DNA from: Shinella zoogloeoides
GTDB lineage: Bacteria; Pseudomonadota; Alphaproteobacteria; Rhizobiales; Rhizobiaceae
Direction: 5' to 3'
DNA: 64,000 bases
NCBI RefSeq assembly: GCF_033705735.1
Contig: NZ_CP131131.1
Location: forward strand, 372,001-436,000
Under the pieces are notes generated by a model that did not search any database, was not told the DNA's origin, and saw nothing but the letters and a program-made list of their open reading frames with translations. Both the position numbers and the translations under genes were made by a program. Shown here in pieces: positions 1 to 19,317 of this stretch (the stretch's first letter is position 1; the number at the start of each line of letters is the position of its first letter).

Positions 1-3000
1 CGGTCCGACGCCTCGGTCCGCAGAAAAAGCCCACGAGGCGCGCAGCGGCTGGCGACAAACCTCCGCCGGTCTCGTCTGCGAATATCTCCGTTGTCCCTCG
101 CCGGGTTGTGACGGCGACATGGCGTGGCGGGACGCGGACCGGCGCACGGGGCGTGAACGGCTCGAATGCCTAGAATGTTGCGCCGCCATCGAGAGCGACG
201 AGATCATTCTCACCCGCGATCGGTTGCAGTCCGAGACGCCCGACATCCTGTTCACTACCACCGAGATGCTCAACCAGCGCATGGGGGACGACCGTTTCCG
301 GCATCTGTTTGGAATCGGCGAGCGTGCGCAGCGACCGGTGGAGATGATGCTGCTGGACGAAGTCCACACCTACGCAGGTAGTTCCGGTGCTCAAGTTGCC
401 TTCCTCTTACGTCGCTGGCGGCGACTCCTCCGGCGGCACGTCAGCTTTGTGGGCTTGTCCGCCACGCTCAAGGACGGTGCGCGCTTCTTTGCGCAATTGA
501 CCGGCCTGTACGAACAGGCGTCGGCCGAGATCGCCCCTTCCAACAGTGACATGATCGCGGAAGGTGCCGAGTATTTGCTCGCGCTGCGCGGCGATCCCGT
601 GTCGCGCACCGCACTGCTGTCGACGACGATTCAGACAGGGATGCTCCTTTCCCGGCTTCTCGACGCGCCGGATGAACGCAAGAGCCAGGGCATCATCGGC
701 GAACGTGTGTTCCTGTTCACCGACGACATCGATGTTACAAACCGCATGTATTTCGCCATGCTCGATGCCGAGGGTCGACGGAGCAGCGGTGTACCCGACT
801 TGGCGAACAAGCCGGACGGTGGTCTGGCTTCGCTGCGTCGTCCGCTGCCGGTCGAGCACCGCAAGCTGCATGGGCAGGATTGGGAGGCGGTGGTTGAGAT
901 CGGCCACACTCTCCAGCCGCAGGATCGCAAGGCGATCGGGCGCGTGATGTCGATGGATCCGGGGGTCGGCAACAATCTCGACATTATTGTCGCGACCGCT
1001 TCGCTCGAAGTTGGGTTCAACGATCCGCGCGTCGGCGCGGTCATCCAGCACAAGGCACCCCGCGACGTTGCGCAATTTCTCCAGCGCAAAGGTCGCGCTG
1101 GCCGATCACGCCTGATGCGGCCTTGGACCGTCGCGGTGCTGTCCGACTATGGACGGGACCGTCTCGCCTACCAGGGCTATGACCTGCTGTTCGATCCCGA
1201 GTTGCCGCTGCGTACGCTACCGATCGCTAACCGCTATGTGATGCGCATTCAGGCGGTCTATGCGACGCTTGACTATTTGAGCCAAATGCTAGGCCCCTCC
1301 CGACCGGGAAGCGTGTGGCTGGACCTATCGAGCAGCACCGACAACAACTATCAGCGGGCGCGGCAGACAGCGCTCGCCGGCGTGATCCGCCGCATCCTCA
1401 CCATCCCTGCCGAACTCGACCGCTATGTGTCCTATCTCGCCTCGGCGCTCAAGGTCGATGAAAGCGCGGTCACGCCCTTGCTCTGGGATCACCCCAGGCC
1501 GCTCATGACGCAGGTCCTGCCAACTGCGCTTCGCCGGCTCGAGAGCAACTGGCGCGCTTGGGGCGAGCCCGGCGAGGATCATCAGGTCTTCAACTCGCCT
1601 CTACCTGAATTCGCGCCGGCCAACCTGTTCAGCGACCTCAACCTTCCTGAAGTCGATATCGTCTTGCCGCAACCCGGCAGCGCAACGCCCGAGCGGGTTG
1701 CTATGCCGATCGCGCAGGCCCTGCGCGAGTTCGCGCCCGGCCGCGTGTCGCGGCGATACGGCATCAGCCATGCGTTCGAGCGGCATTGGTTATGCCCGGC
1801 CCTCAACCAGAACCGCGGGCAGACTGTGCCGCTCGAGCCGCTCGCCCGTCTCGACCGCCTCGGCGATTGGCGCATCAATGTCGCCGGTTCGGCTCGGCTG
1901 GTCCCCGTCTATCGGCCGCGTGTTCTCGAAGTCCAGCCACCGCCCGCTACTGTCGTCGATACGTCCAACGCCCGACTTCGCTGGCGCAGTCAGATTGTCG
2001 CCCGCGATCAGGGCTTAGTGCTCGATCCGCCGCGCGGTAGTCACTGGACATCGTTGATCGAAGACGTGCGGTTCTACTCGCATGAAGGACTGAGCCCGAT
2101 CGAAGTCCGCCGAATGGCGCTTGGGAGCGACGCGGGCATTCGCTTTCGCGACGGAGGATCACTCCCCAAGGAGTTCCACTTCGAAGTTGGTGGTGAAGCG
2201 GTCGCCCTCGGGTTCAGTCTTGCTGTCGATGCGATGTGCATGCGCCTGCGGTTCCCCGAGGCCTTGTGGTCGAACCTCGGAGCGGAGTCGGACCCGCGAT
2301 ATCGGGCGATGCGCACGGCGCGCTTCCACCATCAGGCATTGAACGGGCCGCTTAGCGAACGGGTAGAAAACCCGTTCGCGCGAGAGTGGTTGGCGCATCT
2401 TATGCTCGCAGCCCTCAGCAATGAAGCGATGGCGCGTGGGGTCTCGTTGAGGGAAGCGGCCGAACGGTTGGCGGTCGGGAACGCCGAACTCGGCCTCGAC
2501 CAGACGCTCAACATCCTGTTTCAGTCGGCGATCGTCGATGATGCCAATGCTCAAGGCAACCAGCAGGACAAGCTGCGCCAGGATCTGGCCGGCTTCCTCG
2601 CCGACCGGCAAGTGGTGGCCAGCCTGTTTGAATTGGCTGAGATACTATGGACGCCGATCGACGCGGGCTGGGAGCCATGGCTGCGCGAGCGATACGCTTC
2701 GACCGTCGGCACGGCTGCGCTCAGCGCCATTACCAGCCTATGTCCGCAGATCGACGGCGACGGTCTGATCCTCGATGTGACGGCCGGAGTTCGGGAAGAG
2801 GATGACGTGCTCGCCGGCACGCCCGATGGCGAGATCTGGATCAGTGAGATGACGCCGGGCGGCAATGGGCAGATCGAGGAGGCGCAGCGTCAATACGTTG
2901 AGGACCCGCGGCGGTTCTTCACCCTGATGACGGCGGCGCTGCGCGACAATGACTTCTCGCTCAGCGATTATCAACTCGGTCGCTTCCTTGCATCGGTCGT

Positions 3001-3739
3001 GGAGGGCGACAACGACGATCCACTGCTAACCGCGACGTGTGCGTTCCGGAATAGCTCGGGCGCGGTGGAAAGCCATGCGAGTTTCACCGCGTTGCGTCAC
3101 GCGCTTGCGGAGGAAGGATTCGTCACCTTTCACGCGTTCGTCGTCGCGCTCGCCAATCGCATCCTCCGGCCCGGATCGAGCAGAGACAGCGATGCCTTCT
3201 TCCTCTTCGCTGTGCGGTTGTGGGACGCCGAGGAAGCGCGCCTTGGCATCGAGTTGGATGCTCGCGTGCTCGCCTACCGGCTCGCGCGCTCCGACGATAT
3301 TGATGCGGCACTTGCCCTGGCCGGCATCGATCCGCCGACGGTCAATCCGGATCAGTGGCGATACGGCGTGATTTACGGACTGCTCTGGCCGCGCGGGGCG
3401 CACATCAGGCAATCGGGTCTTCGGCCTTATTCGCCATTTGCCGATCTGCCGCTGCCTGATCCGCTGCTGGTGCGGACCTATCTAGCAGAGGATGCTGCGC
3501 TCGTCGATCTCGAGGCTGACGGCTGGCAGGACCTTTGCCTTGATCGTCTCGCCGCCGTAGGCGCGGCGACGTTGGTGTGCCCGATGGCGGCTTCACCTTT
3601 GCTGGCGGACGCTCTGAGCTTCCTGGCGACCAATCCGGTGCAGTCCGCCTATTTGTCGGTGTTTGCCCGCGTACAGGCGGTGCGACGGGTGGAGAACGCC
3701 TTCCATGTAGATCTCGATGTCGCGGAGGCGCTGCAATGA
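1..3739 (+). CDS. dpdJ: DpdJ-like DEAH/DEAD helicase, 5' end cut by window edge
   Basis: This is a large superfamily 2 helicase of the Dpd DNA-modification/restriction system. The frame is open from the window's left edge, so the N-terminus and Walker A are missing. The ATG at 119 is probably internal, because a Cys-rich stretch (C-x4-C and C-x2-C type) spans it at about 77-184. Seen in order: Walker B LLDEVH (about 349-366), SAT motif GLSATL (about 450-470), and motif VI QRKGRAGR (about 1082-1105). A long C-terminal half carries a DUF1998-like EMTPGGNG segment (about 2846-2869). The stop overlaps the dpdK start by 4 bp. In Salmonella, dpdJ is placed among the restriction-side genes. The helicase call is firm; DpdJ rests on motif layout plus neighbours dpdK, dpdD and dpdA. 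Confidence 0.8.
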   Translation, partial: GPTPRSAEKAHEARSGWRQTSAGLVCEYLRCPSPGCDGDMAWRDADRRTGRERLECLECCAAIESDEIILTRDRLQSETPDILFTTTEMLNQRMGDDRFRHLFGIGERAQRPVEMMLLDEVHTYAGSSGAQVAFLLRRWRRLLRRHVSFVGLSATLKDGARFFAQLTGLYEQASAEIAPSNSDMIAEGAEYLLALRGDPVSRTALLSTTIQTGMLLSRLLDAPDERKSQGIIGERVFLFTDDIDVTNRMYFAMLDAEGRRSSGVPDLANKPDGGLASLRRPLPVEHRKLHGQDWEAVVEIGHTLQPQDRKAIGRVMSMDPGVGNNLDIIVATASLEVGFNDPRVGAVIQHKAPRDVAQFLQRKGRAGRSRLMRPWTVAVLSDYGRDRLAYQGYDLLFDPELPLRTLPIANRYVMRIQAVYATLDYLSQMLGPSRPGSVWLDLSSSTDNNYQRARQTALAGVIRRILTIPAELDRYVSYLASALKVDESAVTPLLWDHPRPLMTQVLPTALRRLESNWRAWGEPGEDHQVFNSPLPEFAPANLFSDLNLPEVDIVLPQPGSATPERVAMPIAQALREFAPGRVSRRYGISHAFERHWLCPALNQNRGQTVPLEPLARLDRLGDWRINVAGSARLVPVYRPRVLEVQPPPATVVDTSNARLRWRSQIVARDQGLVLDPPRGSHWTSLIEDVRFYSHEGLSPIEVRRMALGSDAGIRFRDGGSLPKEFHFEVGGEAVALGFSLAVDAMCMRLRFPEALWSNLGAESDPRYRAMRTARFHHQALNGPLSERVENPFAREWLAHLMLAALSNEAMARGVSLREAAERLAVGNAELGLDQTLNILFQSAIVDDANAQGNQQDKLRQDLAGFLADRQVVASLFELAEILWTPIDAGWEPWLRERYASTVGTAALSAITSLCPQIDGDGLILDVTAGVREEDDVLAGTPDGEIWISEMTPGGNGQIEEAQRQYVEDPRRFFTLMTAALRDNDFSLSDYQLGRFLASVVEGDNDDPLLTATCAFRNSSGAVESHASFTALRHALAEEGFVTFHAFVVALANRILRPGSSRDSDAFFLFAVRLWDAEEARLGIELDARVLAYRLARSDDIDAALALAGIDPPTVNPDQWRYGVIYGLLWPRGAHIRQSGLRPYSPFADLPLPDPLLVRTYLAEDAALVDLEADGWQDLCLDRLAAVGAATLVCPMAASPLLADALSFLATNPVQSAYLSVFARVQAVRRVENAFHVDLDVAEALQ

Positions 3740-4275
3740 GCTTCGAAACACGACGGATCTTCAAGAGCGCGGTGACGAGCCAGAATCTCATTCGTGAACT
3801 CCTGCAAATGATGTTCCTCGGCGAACTCCTTGCGCCAGGCGGAGAGCGCGCCTGGCTGGTCAGCCCATGGATCAGCAACGTGGTGCTATTTGACAACCGC
3901 GCAGGCGGTTTCGGCTCGGTCAATCCGGAGTGGGGCAGCCGCGAGATCAGATTGGTCGAGGTTTTGACCGACGTCATGGCGCGCGGCACGGCGCTGGGCA
4001 TTACAACGAGTCTTGATGATCACAACGATCCGCTCATCGATGCGCTCACGATGGCAGCCGACGAGTCCGGTCTCACCGACAAGTTGTGCGTCGTCCGGCG
4101 GCAGCATCTTCACATAAAGGGCGTGCTACTCAAACGAGGCCTGCTCACCGGGTCGATGAACCTCACCTACAACGGCCTCGAATTGAACGACGAGATGGTG
4201 GTCTACGACACCACACCGAAGACGCTCGCCGAAGCGCGGATAAATTTTGAATCATATATGGGCGCGGCCACATGA
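3736..4275 (+). CDS. dpdK: DpdK, phospholipase-D-like protein
   Basis: This 179-residue protein resembles the phospholipase D/nuclease superfamily and is the probable effector-side partner of DpdJ and DpdD. The ATG at 3736 is chosen because it overlaps the dpdJ stop (ATGA); an open frame upstream lies inside dpdJ. Near the C-terminus is HLHIK, followed by a GSMN segment, which is the H-x-K...G-S-x-N pattern of one PLD half-site. The Asp expected five residues after the Lys is replaced by Lys, and only one half-site is present, so a dimer would be needed for PLD chemistry. In Salmonella, dpdK is reported to contribute to the restriction-like phenotype. Its stop overlaps the dpdD start by 4 bp. 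Confidence 0.8.
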   Translation: MSFETRRIFKSAVTSQNLIRELLQMMFLGELLAPGGERAWLVSPWISNVVLFDNRAGGFGSVNPEWGSREIRLVEVLTDVMARGTALGITTSLDDHNDPLIDALTMAADESGLTDKLCVVRRQHLHIKGVLLKRGLLTGSMNLTYNGLELNDEMVVYDTTPKTLAEARINFESYMGAAT

Positions 4276-6545
4276 TCGAGCATCTGCCCGAGAGTGAGCA
4301 AGAATGGCTGGAGGACTTCTTCGCCTCTCCAAACGAGCTGAGCTGGAGGTCACTTCTCGGCGGCTCCGCCCCTGCCGAACAGGCGGATCAGGTTCGGCGA
4401 TGGCTCGCCCATCTCGGCGCTGATAGGACCAACGCGCCGTTGGTTCTACCGTTCGTGCGCGGCGGAGAGGTGACGGGCTGGTATGCCACCACACAAGGAG
4501 TCGCCGGCGGATTTGAGCTCGGGGACGAGCTCAAAGCGTGGCTGGGGCCGACGTGGCTCAGCCGCTTCGACCGAGTGCCGAGCGATGCCCCGGATCCGAT
4601 GGCGGCCGCGCTTCGCGACCGCTTCGGTGGGACTGTCTATCGCTTCACCGGACCCGATGCCGCAGCAAAGCGGGTGATCGCCGGTCGCTTAGGTGATTTT
4701 GCCGGGCTTCTCGAGCGAAAGCCGCGAGTGACACGCGCGCAGATCCGCCCGGTCGGAGCGATCCGGGGCGACTTCGAGCGCGCTCTGCTGGCCGGCGACG
4801 AAACGCAGGCTGAGGCAATGATCGCCGAGTTGAAACAGACCGGACGCCTCAACGAGGAGAACCTCAAATATCTCGACGTGCGGCTGAGCGCTGGCCTCGG
4901 GCTCTGGCCGCAGATCGCGCGCGATCACTGGCTCATCAAGACGCTCTCGGATCTTGCCCTTCCGCCGCAGATTCTCGCAGACCTGATCGAGGCGCTTTAC
5001 CGCACCTATGTCGACGAGGCGGAGGCCAGTGGTGATCCGGCCGCGCTGCGCGAAGCCTTCATCGTTCACGTCGCAACACCTTATCCCAAACTGTTTACGT
5101 CGCGCCGTGGCATTCGTGCGCCACGCGTGGTCAAGGCGTTCTCGCTGTTCGAGCAGTTGCAACCGAGCCCCGACCCGGCGCTTGTCGCTTCGCTGCTCGC
5201 CCTGTTGCCTGCAGGAACGGACACCGCGTTGTTCGAGCAGGGACCTGTCGCAGAACCCAAGCCCTCATCTGCCACGACTTTGGACGAGGCGGACGAGGCT
5301 TTTGACGACGGGCAGATTGACCGCGCTTTTGAATTTTACATGCGGCTGCCGCCGAGCAGGAAGACCATTAGCAGGTTGGTGTCCTGTGTGGGCACGATCG
5401 GAACCGACGAGGCTCAGGATCGTTTCCTTGCGCTAATTGAAGGCTCCGATCCGGCGCTCCTCGATTCTTTGGCCCCCGCCGTTGCGGCGAAAATCGAGAG
5501 CCTGAGGCAGTCGCTGACCGACGATGGCGAACACGCGCGAGCCGAATTGGTGCCCGCAGCCGTGGTAAGCCCCTGGTTGCGGTGGGCGGAGCAGTTGCGG
5601 GCGGGGCGCAATCTCGTCGCCGCTGAGCGCGACGCGCAATCCGCTCCGACCAACTGGAACGCGGCAGAGATAAGAGAAAGCAGTTCACTCGCCCACCAGT
5701 TCGCGAATATCATCGGCGGCCTCGACGGCGAGGCCAGCGCGATCGCTCGCGCTGCCGTTCCGCAGCTCTTCGCGAGCTTCTTCCCAGACGATGTGAAGGC
5801 GTCACCGGCGGCGAAGCCGATCGCGTCGTTGCTGTTCCTGCTGATCGCGATGAGCGATACGCTATCACGATCGGACCTCGACCTACTCGCACAGTTGACG
5901 ACACTGCTAATCGAGCAGGGATTGTCTTCATCCGAGTACGTGTCGCTGATGAATGATCTTGAAGATGTGCAGAAAAGGATCGGCTCCTACGCCTATCTGC
6001 CGTGGAGCCTCGACGTCGCTGAGGCGCTCGCGATCCTTCCCAGCCCGTCAGATCAGGCCCGCGATGCCCGGCTGAGGCTTTTCCTGCAGGTGCTTGGCCA
6101 GGCCGCCGGTTTTGCCCATCGACTGATGTCGGCAGATCTAGTTTCGGTCCACACGCTGGCGAAAGACTATGGCGTCGGGGCCGAGGCGGTCAGCACCCTC
6201 CAGCGCGAGCAGGGCGTGGATGACATTGCCGCCGCTGCTCTGCCCAACCTTGATGGCAAGACAATCGGCATCTACACGCTGGCCGAAGCGGCGGGCAGCC
6301 GGGCGAAGACCGCGCTTGAAAGGCTGTTTCCCGGTTGCAAAGTCGTCGTGAATTCGGACCTGGTCGCGACGACTCAACTGACAAATCTCGCCAAGACTGC
6401 AGACCTGTTCGTTTTCGCCTGGAAGAGCAGTAGCCATCAAGCCTTCTACTGCGTGAAGGATGCGCTGATCGGTAAAGAGCCGATCTGGGCGCCGGGTAAA
6501 GGCACGGCTAGCATCCTACGGGCAGTCCTCGATCGGCTCAACTGA
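4272..6545 (+). CDS. dpdD: DpdD-like restriction-associated protein
   Basis: A 757-residue, mostly helical, soluble protein without signal peptide or membrane segments. I see no catalytic motif of a known nuclease or ATPase. Assignment to DpdD rests on size, on the translationally coupled order dpdJ-dpdK-dpdD (ATGA overlap at 4272-4275), and on the dpdA/dpdB/queCDE operon opposite. In Salmonella Montevideo, dpdD is one of the genes needed for the restriction-like phenotype rather than for base insertion. The C-terminal part (LDGKTIGIYTLAEAAGS..., about residues 655-757) looks like a small alpha/beta domain, possibly a sensor of nucleotide or sugar; this is inference. It converges on the yhhQ end of the opposite operon. 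Confidence 0.72.
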   Translation: MIEHLPESEQEWLEDFFASPNELSWRSLLGGSAPAEQADQVRRWLAHLGADRTNAPLVLPFVRGGEVTGWYATTQGVAGGFELGDELKAWLGPTWLSRFDRVPSDAPDPMAAALRDRFGGTVYRFTGPDAAAKRVIAGRLGDFAGLLERKPRVTRAQIRPVGAIRGDFERALLAGDETQAEAMIAELKQTGRLNEENLKYLDVRLSAGLGLWPQIARDHWLIKTLSDLALPPQILADLIEALYRTYVDEAEASGDPAALREAFIVHVATPYPKLFTSRRGIRAPRVVKAFSLFEQLQPSPDPALVASLLALLPAGTDTALFEQGPVAEPKPSSATTLDEADEAFDDGQIDRAFEFYMRLPPSRKTISRLVSCVGTIGTDEAQDRFLALIEGSDPALLDSLAPAVAAKIESLRQSLTDDGEHARAELVPAAVVSPWLRWAEQLRAGRNLVAAERDAQSAPTNWNAAEIRESSSLAHQFANIIGGLDGEASAIARAAVPQLFASFFPDDVKASPAAKPIASLLFLLIAMSDTLSRSDLDLLAQLTTLLIEQGLSSSEYVSLMNDLEDVQKRIGSYAYLPWSLDVAEALAILPSPSDQARDARLRLFLQVLGQAAGFAHRLMSADLVSVHTLAKDYGVGAEAVSTLQREQGVDDIAAAALPNLDGKTIGIYTLAEAAGSRAKTALERLFPGCKVVVNSDLVATTQLTNLAKTADLFVFAWKSSSHQAFYCVKDALIGKEPIWAPGKGTASILRAVLDRLN

Positions 6546-6741
6546 AGCTGAAAAGCACCATCTCCGAACTCCGGAGTGGGTGAACCTCGTGGCTGTTACG
6601 ACGGTTCATATTTAGTGCAGCCTGCGACTGATTAGGACTTGTGACAGATACCTGGCGTCTTGCTTGGCGATCTAACTTAACTTCATCGGAGCGGATAACC
6701 AGCATCCTGGACGCTCCCAGAAGATTTTCTGACTTATTCCG

Positions 6742-7305
6742 TCATGCTGGCGTAAGTCCCAATCGTCGATCCCGGTTGCGAATCCAAAAAAGCAGGGGAA
6801 GGGCGGCAATCACCATGAGCGCCTTGCCGACAACTTGTCCTGTGAGGAATTCAAGCGACCCGAAAGCCAACCAGAGGAACATTACGCTGTCGACGACCAG
6901 GCCGGCCACGCTGCTCAGCAGAGCGGCCTTGACTAGGCCCTTCTTCTGCAGGGGAGTAAACACGAGCAGGTCAGCGATTTCCGAGGAAAGGAAGGCCGCG
7001 GCCGATGCGAAAGCAAGGGCAGAGGCCGTGAACGTGGTGGACAAAGCCGCGCCGACGGCGATCGCGCCGATCGCCCAAACGATGCCGAGCCGGCGCTGCA
7101 CGAGATCCCGCAACACCAGTGCGAGCCCTACCAGCAGAACACCGCTTGGAGCTGTCAATCCGGGACCGACCGGAATGATGCACGGGCCGTTCGGAACGCA
7201 TGCCGTTCCAATGTGGCCGATCATGTAGTTTGCCAGCGGGATGCAGGCCATGAAACCCGCCAGGAAAAGTGCGCCTTCGATACGCTGTCTGTTTGTCGTG
7301 TTCAT
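6742..7305 (-). CDS. yhhQ: VUT/YhhQ-family queuosine-precursor transporter
   Basis: A 187-residue integral membrane protein with about six hydrophobic segments, typical of the YhhQ/VUT (QPTR) family that imports the 7-deazaguanine precursors preQ0/preQ1. Visible hallmarks are the early LANYMIGHIG segment, a membrane-embedded VLRDLVQRRLG motif and a C-terminal WIRNRDRR. It is the last gene of the minus-strand operon, 15 bp after queC, so it should be co-expressed with preQ0 synthesis and DpdA. Its presence suggests the system can use salvaged as well as newly made preQ0. The family call is strong; the exact substrate is inferred. Confidence 0.85.
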   Translation of the reverse strand: MNTTNRQRIEGALFLAGFMACIPLANYMIGHIGTACVPNGPCIIPVGPGLTAPSGVLLVGLALVLRDLVQRRLGIVWAIGAIAVGAALSTTFTASALAFASAAAFLSSEIADLLVFTPLQKKGLVKAALLSSVAGLVVDSVMFLWLAFGSLEFLTGQVVGKALMVIAALPLLFWIRNRDRRLGLTPA

Positions 7306-7320
7306 ATGATCGCCCTCGCT

Positions 7321-8022
7321 TCAAACCTGTTCTGCAACAAATCGCTCATAGCCATTCGCCCGCAATTCGCAGGCCGGACATGTACCGCAGCCATATCCCC
7401 AGTCGTGGAGATCACCCCGTTCTCCGAGGTAGCAGGTGTGGCTTTCCTTGACGATGGTCGCGACAAGGCGAGGACCTCCGAGACGGTCCGCCAGACTCCA
7501 GGTATCCGCCTTGTCAAGCCACATCAGGGGGGTATCGAGCACGAAGCGCTTTTCCATGCCGAGATTGAGAGCGACCTGCAACGCCTTGATCGTATCGTCG
7601 CGGCAATCTGGATAGCCGGAATAATCCGTCTCGCACATGCCGCCGACGATGTGTTTCAATCCCCGGCGGTAGGCAAGCGCGGCCGCGAAGGTCAGAAAGA
7701 TGATGTTCCGGCCCGGCACGAAGGTGTTCGGTAGCCCGGTATCTTCCATTTCGATGGCGATTTCGCTGGTCAACGCAGTGTCGGAGATTTCGCCGAGCGA
7801 GGCCAACGAAATCGTATGGTCCTCACCTAGGCGCCCTGCCCAGTCCGGGTTCATGGCCGCGAGTTCCAGGCGAAGGGCTTTCCGGCAGTCGAGTTCGATC
7901 CGATGACGCTGGCCGTAGTCGAAGCCCACCGTCTCCACCCGTTCATATCGATCTAGGGCCCAAGCAAGGCAGGTCGACGAATCCTGACCTCCGGAAAACA
8001 AAACCAGCGCTGTCGATGTCAT
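7321..8022 (-). CDS. queC: 7-cyano-7-deazaguanine (preQ0) synthase QueC
   Basis: QueC converts 7-carboxy-7-deazaguanine and ammonia to preQ0 using ATP. The 233-residue length is normal. The N-terminal PP-loop SGGQDS (residues 10-15) binds ATP. A C-terminal zinc site is formed by Cys residues around SHTCYLGE and GCGTCPAC. In this operon preQ0 should feed DpdA for insertion into DNA as well as any tRNA queuosine pathway. It lies 12 bp after queD and 15 bp before the yhhQ-like transporter. Confidence 0.95.
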
Positions 8023-8034
8023 CGGTCCATCCTT

Positions 8035-8391
8035 TTAATTGCCGTCGTATTCGGCCCAGCACATGGGCGTCTCGAAGACTTTCACTGAACTCAATTCCGG
8101 AAGCAGCGGGCGAACCCGCGTCCAGATCCATGATGCAATGTTCTCGGCCGTCGGGTTTTCCAGCCCCTCGATCTCGTTAAGCGTGTGGTGGTCGAGTTGC
8201 GCGAGGAGGGGACCGAAAGCCTCCTCCAGATCAAAGAAGTCGATGACGAAACCAGTCTCCGGGTTCACCTTGCCGTCCAACTGCAGTTCGACCCGGTAGG
8301 AATGACCATGCATGCGGTGGCACTTATGGGTGGCCGGCACGTGGGGCAGGCGATGCGCCGCTTCAAAAGTGAAAGCTTGGGTGATTCTCAT
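8035..8391 (-). CDS. queD: 6-carboxy-5,6,7,8-tetrahydropterin synthase QueD
   Basis: QueD makes 6-carboxytetrahydropterin from dihydroneopterin triphosphate, the second step of preQ0 synthesis after FolE. The start at 8391 gives MRITQAFTFEAAHRL and 118 residues, the usual length; longer readings run backwards through queE. FEAAHRL, CHRMHGHSY and LDHHTLN supply the zinc histidines and the catalytic Cys. The start overlaps the queE stop by 4 bp. No folE (GTP cyclohydrolase) is present in this window, so the first step must be encoded elsewhere, possibly left of the window edge. Confidence 0.94.
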   Translation of the reverse strand: MRITQAFTFEAAHRLPHVPATHKCHRMHGHSYRVELQLDGKVNPETGFVIDFFDLEEAFGPLLAQLDHHTLNEIEGLENPTAENIASWIWTRVRPLLPELSSVKVFETPMCWAEYDGN

Positions 8392-9020
8392 GGGATCCCG
8401 ATCATCTTGTGCGTTTGCAGCGACAGGCGCCACTTTGGATTTTCCAGGCAGTATTCCGTCACAGCCACCGTGTTTGCAGCCCGGTTCGGTCCATCCATCG
8501 GCTGCAGGAAGTAGTGCTCGAAGGCTAAGTCCGGCAGCGCCTCCGGCAGAAGATCCGGTTGCGGAAAAACCAACTTCAACTCGCTGCCGGCCCTCAGATT
8601 CAAGGGCGCGCCGGCTTTTGGACTGACGCAAATCCAGTCGACGCCGGCTGGAGGCTCAAGCGTGCCATTTGTCTCGATCGCAATCTCGAAGCCGTGCCGG
8701 TGAACGGCTGCAACGAGATCGTCATCGAGTTGCAGGAGGGGCTCACCGCCTGTGAACACGACGTAGCGCCGGTGCGTCGCATCGCCCCACGTCGCGGCGA
8801 TCTGAAGGGCAAGCGCTTCTGCGTCTTTAAATTTCGCCCCGCCGGTGCCGTTTGTGCCCACGAAGTCCGTGTCGCAGAACTTGCAGACGGCCTGGTCACG
8901 GTCCTCTTCCCGTCCCGACCAAAGATTGCAGCCAGTAAACCGGCAAAACACCGCCGCCCGACCGGCTTGGGCGCCTTCTCCCTGCAACGTCTTGAACAGT
9001 TCCTTGACGGCGTAGACCAT
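8388..9020 (-). CDS. queE: 7-carboxy-7-deazaguanine synthase QueE
   Basis: A radical-SAM enzyme that contracts carboxytetrahydropterin to 7-carboxy-7-deazaguanine. The 210-residue protein starts at MVYAVKELFKTLQGEG (start at 9020, overlapping the dpdB1 stop by one base). It has the C-x14-C-x2-C cluster motif of the long QueE type (CNLW...CKFC) and the GGEPLLQ segment of radical-SAM enzymes. It is the fifth gene in the operon, between dpdB1 and queD, with overlapping ends on both sides. This points to tight translational coupling of base synthesis with base insertion. Confidence 0.94.
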   Translation of the reverse strand: MVYAVKELFKTLQGEGAQAGRAAVFCRFTGCNLWSGREEDRDQAVCKFCDTDFVGTNGTGGAKFKDAEALALQIAATWGDATHRRYVVFTGGEPLLQLDDDLVAAVHRHGFEIAIETNGTLEPPAGVDWICVSPKAGAPLNLRAGSELKLVFPQPDLLPEALPDLAFEHYFLQPMDGPNRAANTVAVTEYCLENPKWRLSLQTHKMIGIP

Positions 9021-10117
9021 CACATGCTCGCTTGTTTCGGTTCGACATCGTCGGCGCGGCGCCGCTTGACATCGGCACGCACGATCCCGATGAGGTATTG
9101 CGCGAGGGTCACGATATCGCGGTTGACGTTCTGCACGGACTTCCAATGGCGGCGATCATTCTCGCCGAAGTTCCATTCTCCTGACGTCCACGCGGTATTG
9201 CCGACAAGGCATGCCAGGCCCCTGGAGAAGTCGTGAACGGTGCGGGCGCCATCGAGGAGCGCGAGCACCTCCATCACATAGCCCAGCGACATGATACCGG
9301 CGCCATGGACCAGTCGAGAAGTCTTCGGCGTGTGACCCTCCCATTCATTGAGGAAGACGGTCTGTACCGCACGATAAAAGTCACTGACGAGGGCGAAGCT
9401 GAGATCGGCTCCATCGGGTTCGCGGATGAGTTCACGCATGACGCCGTCGCTCATCGAGTTGATAACGACCCGCTGGATCGCCGTGTCACGGATAATCCCG
9501 GTCGGGTTCGTGTGCTGGTAGATTTTGCCCTTGAGCGAAGAGCCGTCGTCGTAATTGAGGCGTGCTGCCAGATCTGCCGCGACCGAACGATCACCCAGAC
9601 GGCGCGGCAGCCCCCTTACCGTCGGCAGCAGTTCATAGATCAGCGATTTCGGAAGCGGCCGGGTATTGTTGATGAGCACGAACTGGCGGCGCAGTTCCTC
9701 CTCGTCTCTGCAGACGATGGCCGACACGAAGACCTGGAAATCCTTTTCCTCAACCTGGCTGAGGGCAGTCAGGCGCTGCTGGCCATCGACGACGAGACCG
9801 GGCGCACCACCCATTGCGTCAATCTCCACCATGCAGCGGCCGTCCGCGGCTTCCTCACTGATCGTGATTCCGGTGGTGAAGGCGACAACGATCGGGTTGG
9901 GAAGGATCGCTTCCGGTTTTTCCAGATAGTCGCGGATTTCGCGGATGTGACCAGCAATCTGCGGACGCTGAAAACCGCTCAGCGCGCCACCCTCGTCGCG
10001 CGCAACCCGTTCGATCACGGCGAAATTCTTCAGGTCAGACGCTTTCGCTGCAAACGAAAGAACGGTGTGCGTTTCGCTCTGTTTCGCTCGGATTGCCGGA
10101 AATTTGAGTATGGTCAT
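9020..10117 (-). CDS. dpdB: DpdB paralogue 1 (DGQQR/DndB-like protein)
   Basis: A DGQHR-domain protein of the DndB/DpdB group, the partner DpdA needs in Salmonella to place preQ0 in DNA. The start at 10117 (MTILKFPAIRAK) is chosen over 10168; it overlaps the dpdA 3' end by about 80 bp. Seen: DGQQR at about residues 111-115, then RRQFVLINNTRPLPKSLIYELLP, a ParB/DndB-like segment, and a C-terminal AWTSGEWNF block shared with dpdB2. It lies immediately downstream of dpdA and upstream of queE. The second copy at 11399-12520 is clearly homologous but diverged, so the two may form a heteromer. That is inference. Confidence 0.85.
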   Translation of the reverse strand: MTILKFPAIRAKQSETHTVLSFAAKASDLKNFAVIERVARDEGGALSGFQRPQIAGHIREIRDYLEKPEAILPNPIVVAFTTGITISEEAADGRCMVEIDAMGGAPGLVVDGQQRLTALSQVEEKDFQVFVSAIVCRDEEELRRQFVLINNTRPLPKSLIYELLPTVRGLPRRLGDRSVAADLAARLNYDDGSSLKGKIYQHTNPTGIIRDTAIQRVVINSMSDGVMRELIREPDGADLSFALVSDFYRAVQTVFLNEWEGHTPKTSRLVHGAGIMSLGYVMEVLALLDGARTVHDFSRGLACLVGNTAWTSGEWNFGENDRRHWKSVQNVNRDIVTLAQYLIGIVRADVKRRRADDVEPKQASM

Positions 10118-11402
10118 TGTTATCGCTATTGCTTGGAAGTTGATCGACGAGGGCGTTGTAGACGCCAAGGTTATGGATACCGCGACGCTTGTTGCGGTTG
10201 CTGGCCCGGAACAGCACGACTTCGATCGAGAGGGCCGAACAGATCGCGCAGGAGCATTTTTTCCACGGTCGGTCGATGAGCGTGCGCTTGTACCGCTCGC
10301 GAAGATCCTTGACTGCCTTGGCGTCCGGCAGTTCTTCGACCGGCGACCCCGTCACGGCCGGTGTCGAGTAGGCAATCACCGTATCGAGCGTTTCATCGAG
10401 CACAGCTTCGCCGCGGTCATAGGCACGCAAGGCGGATAGCGCTTTTTTTTCCATCTCGACCAGCGTTTCTTGATGAAGCGCGCCACGCTTGGCCAAGCGC
10501 ATCAGCTTGGGATTCTCGAGGGCCTGCGGCACCCGAATGGCGGTGTAATAATCGAGCTTGCCGCCCTTGGAGGGCAGATAGTAGTTCGCTTTGGCGTCCT
10601 TGAAGGCGCGGATCAGGGGCGAAGTCGTGTCGAAACTGGTGATGTTGAACGAACCGAAAGTGTCGATCTCGTCAGCTTTGGCGAAGCCGAGAATGTGGAT
10701 GCGCGTGGAAGCGGGAACGATATCGCGGATGGCTGCCAGGCAGGATTTGATCTGCGAGGCTTTGAGTGGGACGGTACCACCAAGCGCCAGGTAATCGTAA
10801 CCCATCGCGACCAAACGGCGGGCGCCCTCTGCCATGCTACCCGGCGACCAGCCCTGAATGACCCCCATCGGCGTAAACCGCCCCGACATGTGGGCCGTTG
10901 CTGACCGGAAAGCCGAGGCGTTTTCGAGCGTGATTTCGAACCGGCGACGCGCTTCCTGGGTGCCACCCTCCATGCCTTTAAGGTCTTCGTCGAAATCAAA
11001 GATGATGTGGTCGACAGAACAGCCATGGGTGAAACGGGCATCATCGTAGAATTCCGCCGTGTCCTCCGGTGTGTAAGGAGGTTTGTCTTCCTTGTGATAG
11101 GTGAAGGCGCCGCAATCGCCGAAGATCGGCAGATGCTCGAACTCGGGCTTGTCGAGGCGCAGGAATTCGCGAGCACCGACCCGCCGGAAGCGCATAGCCT
11201 GCGCTTCAGTGTACTTACCACCGACGGCCACGCCACCCACGATACCTCTTGAAACCAGCATGCCTTTATAGGGGGCATAACCCATGATTTCATGCGGATA
11301 GGCGTCGTCCCAATAAGGCGTGCGGCCTTCGGAATACCGGTCGCGGAGAAAATCGTAGCCCGGATCAACATGGTCGAGGCTGTCTGCGAAAATAAACTTC
11401 AT
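10035..11402 (-). CDS. dpdA: DpdA, DNA-guanine transglycosylase (TGT-like)
   Basis: DpdA exchanges guanine in DNA for preQ0, analogous to tRNA-guanine transglycosylase. The protein has 455 residues. GDCGAF at about residues 95-100 carries the TGT-type substrate Asp. LALGGTVPLK (about 205-214) matches the base-binding loop. FDTTSP (about 257-262) includes a candidate nucleophile Asp. A zinc site is formed by C383, C385 and C388 in KKCSCAIC, with H410 in RRGIHN. The last 45 residues run over the dpdB1 start and look unconserved. The start at 11402 overlaps the dpdB2 stop by 4 bp. This gene identifies the cluster as a Dpd system; a phage-type DpdA is less likely given the bacterial restriction genes beside it. 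Confidence 0.93.
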   Translation of the reverse strand: MKFIFADSLDHVDPGYDFLRDRYSEGRTPYWDDAYPHEIMGYAPYKGMLVSRGIVGGVAVGGKYTEAQAMRFRRVGAREFLRLDKPEFEHLPIFGDCGAFTYHKEDKPPYTPEDTAEFYDDARFTHGCSVDHIIFDFDEDLKGMEGGTQEARRRFEITLENASAFRSATAHMSGRFTPMGVIQGWSPGSMAEGARRLVAMGYDYLALGGTVPLKASQIKSCLAAIRDIVPASTRIHILGFAKADEIDTFGSFNITSFDTTSPLIRAFKDAKANYYLPSKGGKLDYYTAIRVPQALENPKLMRLAKRGALHQETLVEMEKKALSALRAYDRGEAVLDETLDTVIAYSTPAVTGSPVEELPDAKAVKDLRERYKRTLIDRPWKKCSCAICSALSIEVVLFRASNRNKRRGIHNLGVYNALVDQLPSNSDNNDHTQISGNPSETERNAHRSFVCSESV

Positions 11403-12520
11403 CGAGAGGCCTTCGATAGCTTGCGATCCAATAGGATCAGATGTTGCGTCAGGCGGTCGATGTGCAGTTGGGTCCCCTGGACTTCATTCCATCTCCAGGC
11501 GAGTTCATCCCACTTTCCGGACGTCCAGCAGCAATGGTCGCGCAAACGAGTCAGCGATCGGCGGATGTCCTCTTCGCTATCGCTAACACTATCAGCACGG
11601 ACCATGATCGGGTCCATGAGTGCGCCCATCGCCCGAATGCCGGCCATATGCATGAGGCGGCTTTTCTCCGGCGGCTGTCCCCATGCCTCCGGAAAAGTAT
11701 CGCGCACAGCCGACCAATACTTGACGAGGACGTGAAACATCTCGTCGGCGTCACAGGCGCCGTCAACGCCGGCATATTGGCTAAGCGCACTCGTCGGCGT
11801 TTTAAGATTGATCTTGATCGCAGCGATCAGAGCGGAGTCGCTTACGACAGCAGATTTCGCCTTCTGGTCGGACCGCCTCTTGATCAACTGGAAGAAGGGC
11901 GAAGCCTTATGGTTATTAAGGAGGTTGCACAACTCGCTTGGAAGCTTGTTTGCAGCGAGATCGCGCGGCAGAAGGGTGCTGACTTCCGGCAGGAGTTCAT
12001 TGATGAGCCTCGTGTCGAGGGCCTTCACCTTGTTTACCAGGATGAACTGTTGCCTCTGAACCTCGATGTCCTGCGAAACGAAGGCAATGACTGGGACTGG
12101 AACGTCTTTGTTTTCTGCGCGCGCAAGAGCAATCGATCGCTGCTGGCCGTCAACAATCCAGGCAATCTTCTTCCCGTCCTTGCTAAGCGGTAAATGGAGA
12201 GTGCCGGATGTCCCGATCTCAATGATATCGGATGGTTTGGTACCGCGTGCGGCTTTGAACTCGACCGCGTCCGAAAGCGCAAGAATGATCGCGTTTGGAA
12301 AGAGGACAGGTCCGCTATTCAGAAACTCGACAATCGAGTTCACATGGCTGCGGATTTCCTGCCGCTGGAAGCCCTGTAACTCGGCTTCATCGCGTTTGAT
12401 GCGGCTAATCTCGGCAATCTGCATGACCGCAGAACCGGGAAGGAAAAACGCATAAACGTCGGTTCCGTACCCTTGCTGTGTCCGGACCGCACGAACGGCC
12501 ATCGACTGCGTTGCTGTCAT
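11399..12520 (-). CDS. dpdB: DpdB paralogue 2 (DGQQR/DndB-like protein)
   Basis: A second DGQHR/DndB-type protein, 373 residues, starting at MTATQSMAVR (12520, ATGA overlap with the gene before it). DGQQR lies at about residues 124-128. RQQFILVNKVKALDTRLINELLP and the C-terminal CWTSGKWDELAW block align by eye with the same parts of dpdB1, so the two are paralogues of near-equal length. It sits immediately upstream of dpdA, while the other copy sits immediately downstream. Known Dpd clusters that I recall have one dpdB, so two copies bracketing dpdA is unusual. Which copy supplies the function is not visible from sequence. Confidence 0.83.
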   Translation of the reverse strand: MTATQSMAVRAVRTQQGYGTDVYAFFLPGSAVMQIAEISRIKRDEAELQGFQRQEIRSHVNSIVEFLNSGPVLFPNAIILALSDAVEFKAARGTKPSDIIEIGTSGTLHLPLSKDGKKIAWIVDGQQRSIALARAENKDVPVPVIAFVSQDIEVQRQQFILVNKVKALDTRLINELLPEVSTLLPRDLAANKLPSELCNLLNNHKASPFFQLIKRRSDQKAKSAVVSDSALIAAIKINLKTPTSALSQYAGVDGACDADEMFHVLVKYWSAVRDTFPEAWGQPPEKSRLMHMAGIRAMGALMDPIMVRADSVSDSEEDIRRSLTRLRDHCCWTSGKWDELAWRWNEVQGTQLHIDRLTQHLILLDRKLSKASR

Positions 12521-13437
12521 AGCTGTGTCCTCTCGGCGCGAACGATTGCGGCCAGTCTGGCAAATCGGCCCTGTTCGCAAGCAATACCGAGCTCATCGCG
12601 AAGCATGCGGAGGAGTCGAGTCGAACGACCCTGCACAGAACCCCACTCCTCGCGGATGGTCCTTAAAAGGTCGTCGTCGTTCAGTCGGATTCCGGCTTTT
12701 GAAATGGGCCTGTCCCACCGATCCTGGGCCGAAGCCACTCGACCAGCGTGGTCTAACGCATCACCATTCGGCGACGCCGGCAATATGTCGGTCACGAAAT
12801 GCCAAAGGGCGCGCTGGGCGAAGTCAGCGAACGTGCCAGGCGTTGGTCCCCCATCCAGACGTCGATCGTACGGCATGCGATAAGGCTTTAATTCGAGATC
12901 GATCTCGAATTGCTCGGATCCAGTGAAAATTCGGATCCGGCCACTCGCGAAGACGGATAACGTCTTCAGAAACCCGCTGAGCATTTTGAGGTAGCTTGCG
13001 GGAAGAGCGACCAGAAGAAGGGCATGGTCGATTTTCAACAGCGTCTCGATCTGAGAGACCTTGTCTCGCCTCGAAATCGCATTCCACCACTCCTCTTCGG
13101 TCGTCCCGTCCGGGAGTTTCGACAGGATCGAGGAAGGAAGGCCTTTGGCCACCGTGAGGTCGTAAGACGGGATGAGATCGGTCGCTTCGACAAGACCCAA
13201 CCCTGCGGACGCAATGAAAAGAGTAGCGTTGGCACCGGAGGCCGCTTGTTTTGCCTCAAGCATGCTCCGACCGGCATAGACCTTGATCGCCTCTGCGACG
13301 CCGGCTGTCCCTGCTAACCGGGTGCTCCATTCCTCGGCAACCGAACGGAGGCTCCCATGCTGAAGACTCGCCGCGATCAGGGAAGGGGCTGGGGAAAACC
13401 GTTTGCGCATGGTGCAAGCTGTTAGAATGACTGTCAT
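12517..13437 (-). CDS. Unrecognised first gene of dpd operon, DUF6884/YaaA-like pattern
   Basis: A 306-residue protein, first in the modification operon and coupled to dpdB2 by a 4-bp overlap. It has an N-terminal VILTACTMRKR (about residues 3-13), then LFIASAGLGLV (about 73-83) and SYDLTV (about 91-96). This spacing resembles the small DUF6884/YaaA-like alpha/beta fold. The remaining 200 residues are not recognised. Position suggests a role in DNA modification. In Salmonella, DpdC turns inserted preQ0 into the amide, and no obvious dpdC is seen here, so this gene is a candidate for that step or a different one. The start could also be at 13467 or 13413. Confidence 0.6.
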   Translation of the reverse strand: MTVILTACTMRKRFSPAPSLIAASLQHGSLRSVAEEWSTRLAGTAGVAEAIKVYAGRSMLEAKQAASGANATLFIASAGLGLVEATDLIPSYDLTVAKGLPSSILSKLPDGTTEEEWWNAISRRDKVSQIETLLKIDHALLLVALPASYLKMLSGFLKTLSVFASGRIRIFTGSEQFEIDLELKPYRMPYDRRLDGGPTPGTFADFAQRALWHFVTDILPASPNGDALDHAGRVASAQDRWDRPISKAGIRLNDDDLLRTIREEWGSVQGRSTRLLRMLRDELGIACEQGRFARLAAIVRAERTQL

Positions 13438-13467
13438 GCTATGGGCTCGCACAAAACTGCAAATCAC

Positions 13468-13481
13468 TTTTCGCGCGAAAA
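13468..13481. promoter_or_regulatory. 14-bp perfect palindrome upstream of dpd operon
   Basis: TTTTCGCGCGAAAA is a perfect 14-bp palindrome starting 31 bp upstream of the first gene of the minus-strand dpd operon. It is a candidate operator or promoter-overlapping regulator site. No regulator gene is adjacent to it; the nearest regulators are hipB and the WYL protein, several kb away. Function is inferred from position and symmetry only. Confidence 0.4.
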
Positions 13482-13665
13482 ATAACTGTCCGTTGTGGTG
13501 AGTTCAAGAAATTACTGTCGGGGGCATGCAGGTTCCCCAGAAAACTGCAGTCGATGGCAGCGTGGCCGGTCAATTATGCCGTCACCCACGGCAAAAGAGC
13601 GCTCGCCTCAGGGCCCCTTAAATTGTAACGTAACTCCGACTCAAATCTTGCGTGCATGTTCTACG

Positions 13666-14037
13666 ATGATTGAATTCATTGACGACGCCGAGCCGTGGCG
13701 ACCTACTACTTCAGGCGAGCGTCTTCTTTTCCTGCTTCTGGCAAATCACAAAGAAGCTCGGTTCCTTTCGGAATCCCTTACCGGATCGGGCCTGCGCTTT
13801 GCTCGACGCTATAGCGATTGGTCGAACTTTATGGTGGGGGCGTCTCTTCTCCACCTTCAGCAGAGGCTCATCAAGCTTGGCAACGACGTGCGCGAGAAAT
13901 TGACGTCCGACAGAATGGATCAACTGAAGGAATTGAGAGCCCGAACCTGCGATGTCGTGCAGTTGACCCACATCGAATACGATGGCGATTTCGGTGAGCT
14001 TATTCAGGAAATCCTTGAGTCGGTCAACGCAGCGTAG
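13666..14037 (+). CDS. Orphan protein between dpd operon and integrase
   Basis: I do not recognise this protein. From the ATG at 13666 it is 123 residues (MIEFIDDAEPWRP...), soluble, with a central LLFLLLANHKEARFLSE helix and an acidic C-terminus. The frame stays open back to 13495, but the extra N-terminal residues (Trp/Arg/Ser-rich) look non-coding, so the shorter start is preferred. It diverges from the dpd operon and is followed by the convergent integrase-like gene. It could be cargo of the island or an accessory of either neighbour; nothing in the sequence decides. Confidence 0.5.
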   Translation: MIEFIDDAEPWRPTTSGERLLFLLLANHKEARFLSESLTGSGLRFARRYSDWSNFMVGASLLHLQQRLIKLGNDVREKLTSDRMDQLKELRARTCDVVQLTHIEYDGDFGELIQEILESVNAA

Positions 14038-14168: not shown

Positions 14169-16532
14169 CTATGCAGCTTCCCAAACTTGGTTCAAAATCT
14201 TAGCGGCCAACGCTGCCTTGTCTTGAGGTAGAAAGCGACCGTAGTGCTGCTGTACCACATCCGGCGTATCTTGAATGGCATAGCTGGCCTGCTCATACGA
14301 CCCGGTTTGCTTCAGGATATGCGTTGCAAGTATATCGCGGAGATTATGTGGCCCATGCGGCAACAAGCCCTTGATGGCGCCGCGACCGGTGTAGGGGTTG
14401 TAGATCCCGTACCGCTGGATCACGGTTCGCCATGCCTCGTAGAATTTTGTTGAGTCGTATGCGGCGTCGAGGCTTGTCGTCTTCACCGTCTTGACGAAGA
14501 AGGTGCCAGGATCCTTTGCATTTCCGAGCAGCACACCGCGATGCTTGTCGATGTAAGCCTCAAGGTATTTGTATAGGTCCAGCAGGTCTGGGAGGATCAA
14601 GCGGAACGGCTTCTGACCGAAGAACGATGAGCTGGCGTTCTTGAAGGCGACTGACGGAATGAGTACTTCCCAGCCGCCATCACGATCGCTCCAGCGCAGT
14701 TCACCGCACTTCATGTCTTCGAGGCGGCGTTCGGATGTTGGGAAATGTCCGCGCGGGCAGACACGCAACTGCCGCAGGTTCTTTTGGCGAAGGCCGAGAT
14801 GCAGGCCAAGGCGCAACAGCAGCAAGGATCGAACGGCTTCCGCCGCCGGCCGCGGGTAGCGATTTTCATCTGGCATGCGTTTCAGGATCTCGTCGGTGAT
14901 CTTGCGGTACTCCGCGAGCGGGCTGTCCGCTTCGAGAACGCACATGATTGGCTCGAACGGATCGCGATGGACGCGCGCTACTCGCTGGATTTCTTTCGAA
15001 CGGTTGGCGGCATGCCGGTGAAACGCATCGCAGGCGCCGTTCCAGTCGCGGGTAGCGAACTCGATTTCCTCCGGTGCAATCAGCCCATCGATCGGTCTGA
15101 CATTCTTCAGAAGCTCCGGGTGCTGTCGGATCCATCCTACCTCCGCGCGCGTGAGTGCCTGCGCGACCATCAGCATGTCTTCTTCCCACTTCGTGTAGAA
15201 GCCACGCCGTTGCTCGCGCCATTGCAGATACCAGTCCCAGACACCGGGAAAGATCAGCAAGCCAAAGCTCAGGTGACTGAGCGGCACGCCTCGACCTTTG
15301 ATCATGCCCGATGGGGAAGCGGCAAGTGCGCCGAACATCAGGCCGAGATGTTCGATCTTTTGAGAGGCGGTTTCTTCACCCCAGACCCCGTTGCGCTGCA
15401 AGCCGATCGCCGTCAGCGTCGAAGTCTTGAACCGGATCAAATCGGCCATTTCCATCGCGAGACGTGGCGGCGCGTCGACGACACCGGACAGAAGGTCCGG
15501 ATCGTCGATTTCCTCGGCCATATTCTGGTTGGCATTGGCTGCAGATGCCCGGGGGCGGGGCGAAAGCGAACCGCCGCCATAGGTGACACCAGGAAAGCGG
15601 ATCGCATAACGCTGCTTGCTGGCTGCCGCCTGGTAGCGGCGGTACTCAGTCGAACCTGAGATGATTACTCGGCGCACCCAGTCGAGAATCTCCTCTCGCT
15701 TCGTGAAGGGCAGGGTGTTGAAGTTTTCCGGTAGATGTAAGGAAATGCGCCGACGCTCGGCCGGGCTGATGTCGCCGAGGTCATGGCCGTAGAGGGAGCG
15801 CTGCTGATGCGGCAGCTTCGCCTTGAAATAGCCTTCCGACAACCGATACCGCTGCTCGATTCGCCGCAGGATGTCGAAGCTGGCAACCGACCGCGGGACA
15901 CGCTCGCCCTGGATCCAGGACAGAAGTGTCTTGCTGTCGAAGGTCTCGGTCAGGCGAACTACGGCGCGGTAGAGCTGCCAGTAACTGTCACCGAACCGGC
16001 GCATATGGTAGATGAGCGCATCCTGAAAGCTTGTCGGATCGGCAGTCGCCTCGAATAATGGATCCGGAAATGGGCTGATCGGCTTTGGTGCAGGACCGCG
16101 TTGCGCGGATGTGTTCCGGGCAAAAAACCCGTCGGCCGCAGCGCGCTTCGGTTTTCTGGTCGAGGAAACTGGCGCTGTCTTTTTGACTGCTTCAATTTTG
16201 CTCATCCGGGTATACTGCTTTGCCGGCGGGGCGTCTTCGCTAACGGGAGGCGCCTTAAGCCATCGGATGATCGCGTCCAGTGCCGGCCGCAACTGCTTCC
16301 TGAGTTCAGCTGTCATTTCGTCTTCGACCCCGCAGGCCTCTCCGATCGCGGTCCAGTCGAGATGGCCATTCAGGATCGGGGGCCGCTTGCGGTAAATGAT
16401 GAGGCTGATCAGATAGGGGCGGAGATTCTCCAGCACCCGCTTTGAGGATATCGGTGCAATACGCACCTCGCAGAATTCCGAAATTTTTCGCTGAAAATGA
16501 CGTGATGAAGGATCGTGTTTGGGCATGCTCAT
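14169..16532 (-). CDS. Large tyrosine-recombinase-like protein (787 aa)
   Basis: The C-terminal third has tyrosine-recombinase features: LHLGLRQKNLRQL (about residue 590, candidate first Arg), PHNLRDIL (His about 729, Arg about 732) and QQHYGRF (Tyr about 764), followed by a terminal helix. The N-terminal 450 residues are not typical of phage integrases. They include a helix-turn-helix-like stretch (LLSWIQGERVPRSVASFDILRRIEQRY) and proline/lysine-rich linkers. It is probably the integrase or a recombinase of the defence island that carries dpd. An internal 160-bp segment (15504-15663) recurs at the right edge of the window. The start is at 16532, or two codons in. Confidence 0.7.
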   Translation of the reverse strand: MSMPKHDPSSRHFQRKISEFCEVRIAPISSKRVLENLRPYLISLIIYRKRPPILNGHLDWTAIGEACGVEDEMTAELRKQLRPALDAIIRWLKAPPVSEDAPPAKQYTRMSKIEAVKKTAPVSSTRKPKRAAADGFFARNTSAQRGPAPKPISPFPDPLFEATADPTSFQDALIYHMRRFGDSYWQLYRAVVRLTETFDSKTLLSWIQGERVPRSVASFDILRRIEQRYRLSEGYFKAKLPHQQRSLYGHDLGDISPAERRRISLHLPENFNTLPFTKREEILDWVRRVIISGSTEYRRYQAAASKQRYAIRFPGVTYGGGSLSPRPRASAANANQNMAEEIDDPDLLSGVVDAPPRLAMEMADLIRFKTSTLTAIGLQRNGVWGEETASQKIEHLGLMFGALAASPSGMIKGRGVPLSHLSFGLLIFPGVWDWYLQWREQRRGFYTKWEEDMLMVAQALTRAEVGWIRQHPELLKNVRPIDGLIAPEEIEFATRDWNGACDAFHRHAANRSKEIQRVARVHRDPFEPIMCVLEADSPLAEYRKITDEILKRMPDENRYPRPAAEAVRSLLLLRLGLHLGLRQKNLRQLRVCPRGHFPTSERRLEDMKCGELRWSDRDGGWEVLIPSVAFKNASSSFFGQKPFRLILPDLLDLYKYLEAYIDKHRGVLLGNAKDPGTFFVKTVKTTSLDAAYDSTKFYEAWRTVIQRYGIYNPYTGRGAIKGLLPHGPHNLRDILATHILKQTGSYEQASYAIQDTPDVVQQHYGRFLPQDKAALAAKILNQVWEAA
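15504..15663. repeat. 160-bp direct repeat, copy 1 (inside integrase gene)
   Basis: This internal piece of the integrase-like gene matches 63841-64000 with about five mismatches in 160 positions (counted by eye), same orientation, offset 48,337 bp. The second copy runs off the window end, so the true repeat may be longer on that side. Confidence 0.95.
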
Positions 16533-16698: not shown

Positions 16699-16770
16699 TT
16701 TTCCGTTGACCGAGCTCAGAATGTTTGAGATAGCTTGCCCTGCTCCACGGAGAACTTTTGGGTAGGTAGG

Positions 16771-17091
16771 ATGGCACGGTCTGAGTCAGATGCCTTGCTG
16801 GAAATTGGGAAGTTGCTGAAGGCTACGCGTAAAGGCAGGCAACTGACGCAGGAGCAGGTTGCCGACATGGCGGGTATATCGCGCCCCCGCTATCGTGAGA
16901 TAGAAGCCGGAAGCAGTGCTGCGCGCACGACGACCCTGATCAACATCGGCCGCGCCCTCGGGCTTGAACTGATGCTTATACCGCAGACTATGGTTCCGGC
17001 CGTCAGCGCGCTGCTGCGGCCGCAGGATGATCTCGACGATCTCCCGGCATTCATGGCTCATCCGGACGGGGACGGGGATGAGAATGTCTGA
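16771..17091 (+). CDS. hipB: HipB-like XRE-family antitoxin/repressor
   Basis: A 106-residue helix-turn-helix protein that should bind DNA and neutralise the HipA kinase next to it. The start at 16771 follows a GGTAGG ribosome site; an upstream in-frame ATG is less likely. The XRE domain spans about residues 8-70, with the recognition region QEQVADMAGISRPRYREIEAG. The C-terminal tail is acidic (DDLDDLPAF, DGDGDENV). Its end overlaps the hipA start. The dyad at 16653-16698 is the expected autoregulatory site. Confidence 0.88.
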   Translation: MARSESDALLEIGKLLKATRKGRQLTQEQVADMAGISRPRYREIEAGSSAARTTTLINIGRALGLELMLIPQTMVPAVSALLRPQDDLDDLPAFMAHPDGDGDENV

Positions 17092-18337: not shown

Positions 18338-18369
18338 AGCCATCCGGCCGAACGGTACCGAGGCTTGTC

Positions 18370-19266: not shown

Positions 19267-19317
19267 AGTGATCGTTCTCCCTGGTTTGAATCGCGGTCAC
19301 CATGATAGAGATCGAGT

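Follow-up and report, generated by a model that had tools for sequence, protein, structure and literature searches.

The 64,000-nucleotide stretch of Shinella zoogloeoides DNA analysed here (the window; G000:C2:372001-436000, from a 5.79 Mb genome in four contigs) carries the right-hand part of an island for 7-deazaguanine in DNA (Dpd). Taken with its left flank, this is very probably a complete restriction-modification island of the Dpd type, built from two halves that can be exchanged, a modification cassette and a restriction arm; a split dpdF gene is predicted to impair its restriction. The right-hand part fills window positions 1-13437 and the remainder lies left of base 1, in 20 kb that we analysed with its own coordinates (L002). 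Family scans of the window and these 20 kb, run with NCBIfam, TIGR, Pfam and PADLOC models against curated cut-offs, find dpdA to dpdK all represented, together with queC, queD, queE and a VUT transporter. The initial annotation had described the Dpd island of an alphaproteobacterium truncated by the left edge, and this description holds; the nearest named relatives are from Shinella and Neorhizobium. The island is of a known kind and is useful for studying how cassette and arm remain matched to each other.

The modification cassette lies on the minus strand, its genes joined by successive few-base overlaps. It begins with dpdC (12517..13437, 306 aa; PADLOC DpdC 347 bits, start checked; the match to Pfam DUF6884 is below cut-off), a predicted converter of preQ0-DNA to ADG-DNA, followed by dpdB2, the upstream of two DpdB paralogues (11399..12520, 373 aa; NCBIfam NF041060, 444.9 bits, cut-off 300), dpdA, a predicted DNA-guanine transglycosylase (10035..11402, 455 aa; NF041059, 558 bits, cut-off 200), and the downstream paralogue dpdB1 (9020..10117, 365 aa; NF041060, 385.6 bits, cut-off 300), whose start overlaps dpdA by 83 bases. 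Both paralogues belong to the DGQHR-domain proteins, contain a DGQQR core and were assigned to their groups by tree. Then come queE for 7-carboxy-7-deazaguanine synthase (8388..9020, 210 aa; TIGR04508, 350 bits, cut-off 240), queD for 6-carboxytetrahydropterin synthase (8035..8391, 118 aa; TIGR03367, 103.7 bits, cut-off 89.25), both with checked starts, and queC for 7-cyano-7-deazaguanine synthase (7321..8022, 233 aa; TIGR00364, 205 bits, cut-off 150.3). The last gene encodes a VUT-family transporter (6742..7305, 187 aa) that exceeds the Pfam Vut_1 cut-off and falls below cut-off with the NCBIfam transporter models, the queuosine-transporter model included; it probably serves uptake of preQ0 or another 7-deazaguanine.

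Facing the cassette, on the plus strand, are the 3' part of dpdJ, encoding a YprA-type helicase (1..3739; NCBIfam DpdJ, 1515 bits, cut-off 800), dpdK for a PLD-type nuclease (3736..4275, 179 aa; NCBIfam DpdK, 199.9 bits, above cut-off; start checked, overlapping the dpdJ stop) and dpdD (4272..6545, 757 aa; NCBIfam DpdD, 638 bits, above cut-off), so that the two halves are convergent. This is the arrangement proposed from the window alone, of a TGT-like DpdA, two DGQQR proteins, queCDE and a VUT transporter in overlapping genes facing dpdJ-dpdK-dpdD, and all of its members are found with the families and orientation given. The window edge cuts dpdJ, and the whole gene (1531 aa) starts at L002:19144, 856 bases left of base 1. 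Reading leftward, as the initial annotation had proposed, supplies this start and also dpdE (L002:6288-9536, NCBIfam above cut-off), dpdF in two pieces, dpdG, dpdH and dpdI. The restriction genes D, E, G, H, J and K exceed their NCBIfam cut-offs, and dpdI was assigned by position (DpdI, 112 bits against a cut-off of 150). The suggestion that dpdC, dpdE-I or folE might lie outside the window is thus right for dpdE-I, which are further left, and for folE, which is on contig C1, and wrong for dpdC.

The same division of labour, with dpdA-C for synthesis and dpdD-K for restriction, is described in parts of the literature on the Salmonella enterica serovar Montevideo island (PMC11888242, PMC5567051, PMC12707154), where the dpd cluster restricts unmodified plasmid more than 1,000-fold (PMC5567051, in part); the present island differs in having two DpdB proteins flanking DpdA, its own queE-queD-queC and transporter, and an interrupted dpdF. 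Published accounts have preQ0 made by FolE-QueD-QueE-QueC and inserted by DpdA with DpdB, after which DpdC converts the inserted preQ0; the further Dpd literature drawn on includes parts of PMC6884629, PMC12458937 and PMC12839542. If the activities reported for Salmonella carry over to the proteins of this island, the cassette (dpdC-dpdB2-dpdA-dpdB1-queE-queD-queC-vut) would make preQ0, DpdA and ATP-using DpdB would swap guanine in DNA for it, DpdC would turn preQ0 in DNA into ADG, and the convergent arm (dpdE-F-G-H-I-J-K-D) would attack unmarked DNA. With dpdF cut by an IS21 element, we predict that DNA here is marked and that restriction is slight or absent. The same convergent order is found on Enterobacter cloacae plasmid pPOL9A, where dpdA-dpdB faces dpdD-dpdK-dpdJ...dpdE, but that plasmid has one DpdB and no queCDE annotated in a 37-kb stretch whose gene table is incomplete.

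The interruption of dpdF is a 2,333-bp IS21-family insertion flanked by a 5-bp target duplication and encoding IstA-like and IstB-like proteins (NF033546, 322 bits, and NF038214, 274 bits, both above cut-off). An identical second copy lies at the end of contig C4; the 5 bases that precede it recur where this contig starts, as expected of a circular replicon with a target duplication of its own. The N-terminal piece of dpdF corresponds to positions 3-200 of the DpdF profile (length 813) and scores below cut-off, and the C-terminal piece, corresponding to positions 206-810, scores 704.6 bits against a cut-off of 550 and is still open over 644 aa. We infer a loss of DpdF helicase function in this genome and, as a further step, a loss of restriction. 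Modification is predicted to be intact and restriction impaired, and because dpdF is interrupted the earlier reading of a functional Dpd variant stands as to Dpd identity but is not supported as to function of the whole. It is unlikely, in our judgement, that restriction still works as part of a full restriction-modification system, with DpdF dispensable or replaced by another helicase. Every other arm gene is open, as is the long C-terminal piece of dpdF, and parts of the GATOR-GC work describe islands with variable dpd content; against this, the insertion parts the Walker-A-like N-terminal ATP-binding region from the DEAH-box C-terminal piece of what is one helicase, and dpdF is in one frame in five of the six genomes compared. 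Four of the five relatives with the same type of arm hold the region matching the C-terminal piece in one open frame (873-990 aa), and in the Shinella relative, whose arm is of the other type, the same region lies in an open frame of 862 aa (842 aa for the single dpdF frame in the pairwise island comparison). The fifth same-arm genome, a metagenome bin, has the region in three pieces, which may reflect a tolerated break or an assembly fault. If the predicted loss of restriction holds, this genome is a naturally occurring example of an island that modifies DNA and does not restrict it.

That the two halves differ in ancestry is evident from comparison with relatives. DpdA was found in two of 61 genomes searched (the present genome G000 counted), and a protein search returned at least 2,916 relatives among 8,000 scored candidates, of which 120 are listed; we confirmed 131 DpdA loci and kept the best 80 of the 131 by closeness to the window DpdA. 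The nearest named relative, Shinella sp. WSJ-2 (genome G015, locus L016), shares the cassette order and 95% of DpdA, and its DNA similarity to the window is unbroken, short pieces aside, only over 6769-13552 (80.7% across 6.8 kb), which is the cassette. Its arm, by contrast, lies in tandem, in the opposite orientation to ours, with an unbroken dpdF and about 25-45% of residues identical in the aligned stretches of each protein (DpdE about 30%). The reverse holds for a Rhizobiaceae bacterium Desfum bin (L082), which has a nearly identical arm (DpdK 92%, DpdD 80%) but a cassette just about 50% identical (DpdA 52%). Further discordant pairs are L082-L085 (DpdA 82%, DpdK 32%) and L061-L062 (DpdA 96%, DpdK 61%).

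The same discordance appears when pairwise identities are correlated (Spearman). Within the cassette (DpdA, B1, B2), the 20 convergent loci, which include the window, give 0.77-0.87; within the arm (DpdD, DpdK) they give 0.93, and between cassette and arm 0.16-0.29. Among 24 tandem loci the values are 0.71-0.80 within the cassette, 0.75 within the arm (DpdF, DpdG) and 0.01-0.28 between them. Weak as they are (0.01 to 0.29), the cassette-arm correlations are not uniformly zero, and for several of them p is below 0.05. Arm orientation changes 14 times on a DpdA tree of 58 rows, with 12 changes forced by well-supported branches, in trees that are quick, built without bootstrap and accompanied by warnings on long branches that meet; orientation is slightly clustered (14 changes against a shuffled mean of 16.6-16.8, with 37 or 45 of 500 shuffles as low) and is not the same thing as arm lineage, several convergent arms sharing just 25-38% of DpdJ with the window. 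Together, these comparisons suggest that modification cassette and restriction arm are exchanged independently among such systems. Fast evolution is frequent among defence genes, and in the comparison with G015 the arm is indeed the most different part; even so, we regard it as highly unlikely that faster evolution of the restriction genes, and not exchange, produced the unequal identities, because the mismatch runs both ways, with the arm conserved over the cassette between the window and L082 and the cassette over the arm between L082 and L085, and the similarity to G015 is continuous only over the cassette.

Exchange may also occur within the cassette. In eight rhizobial loci (L018-L023, L028, L037), identity with the window is about 50% where DpdB2 ends and 98-100% where DpdA starts, and DpdB1 identity is high except at its ends; this jump suggests that dpdC-dpdB2 is exchangeable as a sub-unit. 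L024 has no such jump at the DpdB2/DpdA border.

A pair of DpdB paralogues flanks DpdA in 75 of the best 80 loci, and in trees of the same kind the paralogues fall into two groups, separated by a single branch whose support is 100. The second forward DpdB is missing in four of the 80 loci (L044, L065, L068 and L073), and L029 has DpdB1 in two frames. The single DpdB of Enterobacter, the sole single DpdB placed, falls on the upstream side of the tree on a long branch. Extra dpdB copies have been published before, in part of the Dpd literature. Both groups keep the DGQQR core, and GFQR and DGQQR are invariant throughout (77 upstream and 79 downstream rows), so that a reading of one DpdB as an inactive partner is not supported. 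The predicted model of dpdB1 has a ParB/Srx-like N-domain. DpdB1 and DpdB2 would act jointly with DpdA, and DpdB2 may set the target site. The two fixed groups suggest that work in vitro with a single DpdB misses the commonest layout among the 80 loci. We put forward only tentatively the fuller proposal that the marking and cutting parts of Dpd change hands independently of each other, with DpdB1-DpdB2 an obligate pair and an exchangeable DpdB2, often with DpdC, setting the target sequence. If it were true, an arm serving cassettes whose DpdA and DpdB are only about 50% identical would have to recognise the mark whatever the sequence around it, or else use the DpdB pair of the cassette for recognition, the latter being akin to the sharing of HsdS in type I systems. 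Recognition of unmarked DNA by Dpd restriction has not been further explored, according to part of a 2025 review, and the natural swaps among the window, L016, L082 and L085 provide matched pairs for testing which half holds sequence specificity.

The identity of DpdA and the supply of its substrate are consistent with DNA modification. DpdA matches a solved DNA-guanine transglycosylase (PDB 7ui4, E 9e-100), which we take to be the Salmonella protein. Best matches to tRNA TGT enzymes, which the initial annotation had named as evidence against its reading, are not what is found: the DpdA model gives 558 bits for this protein and the Pfam tRNA-TGT model 20.7 bits, below the cut-off of 26.3. The tRNA tgt model has a single match in the genome, a separate gene on contig C1, and the QueC model has four: besides the island gene, it matches one other at 136 bits and two weakly, at 22-24 bits. 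With tgt and a second QueC-like gene elsewhere, the island genes are free for DNA modification. That the island instead supplies queuosine precursors for tRNA, with DpdA acting on tRNA, is scarcely credible, for although queCDE and a VUT-family transporter are part of 7-deazaguanine metabolism in general, the DpdA scores, the separate tgt gene and the adjoining dpdB, dpdC and restriction genes all argue against it. The only folE match in the genome is on C1, none being present in the window or the 20 kb to its left, and the island with its own QueE-D-C probably draws on this chromosomal FolE.

Within the flank available, 23 of the 80 loci show no arm. For six of these 23 (L034, L040, L067, L071, L078, L079) the right-hand flank spans about 2 kb or less, and L067 carries its arm on the opposite side of the cassette. 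Genes of the 80 loci were classified with profiles built from the window's proteins, so divergent arm genes may have been missed. Five loci in which no dpdE-K arm is in view (L018, L022, L023, L028, L037) share a gene for a RecB-like nuclease protein, matching the TM0106 family below cut-off, and another ORF after it, for example at L018:18413-20791, L022:16877-18094 and L028:19188-21362; the L028 ORF has the length needed for matches to a helicase (AAA_12) and a 2,112-aa DpdJ variant profile, and four of the five loci also have a DndB-like gene. These RecB-like and helicase genes are perhaps another kind of restriction arm. Many loci without an arm in view have a gene pair after the cassette (L018:14638-16390 and similar), encoding a weak PycTM-match protein and a HAD-type hydrolase, which forms clusters of 9 and 12 ORFs.

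Beside dpdC in the window is a gene for a 787-aa protein (14169-16532, minus strand; phrog_216, E 0.027) with a presumably integrase-like C-terminal motif; L018 and L083 have strong relatives of it upstream of dpdA, and it is perhaps a mover of the cassette. Between the two lies a 180-aa ORF (13495-14037, plus strand) with no family match above cut-off and no relative in the 80 loci. Further right, 16735-20229 encodes a helix-turn-helix-like ORF with HipA (toxin-antitoxin type), a serine recombinase and an HNH-nuclease protein. The genes left of dpdE are a defence island, with an ABC-three-component system (CTD7, MC3, DUF3732) and a putative phage abortive infection protein (putAbiC) at L002:1139-4816 and 5131-6114 (about -18861 to -13886 relative to the window). 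A scpB-like gene lies near both Shinella-type islands, on different sides (L002:41-745 and G015:C3 about 33476-34038; 77.6% DNA identity over 563 bases), and its neighbourhood is possibly a shared insertion region.
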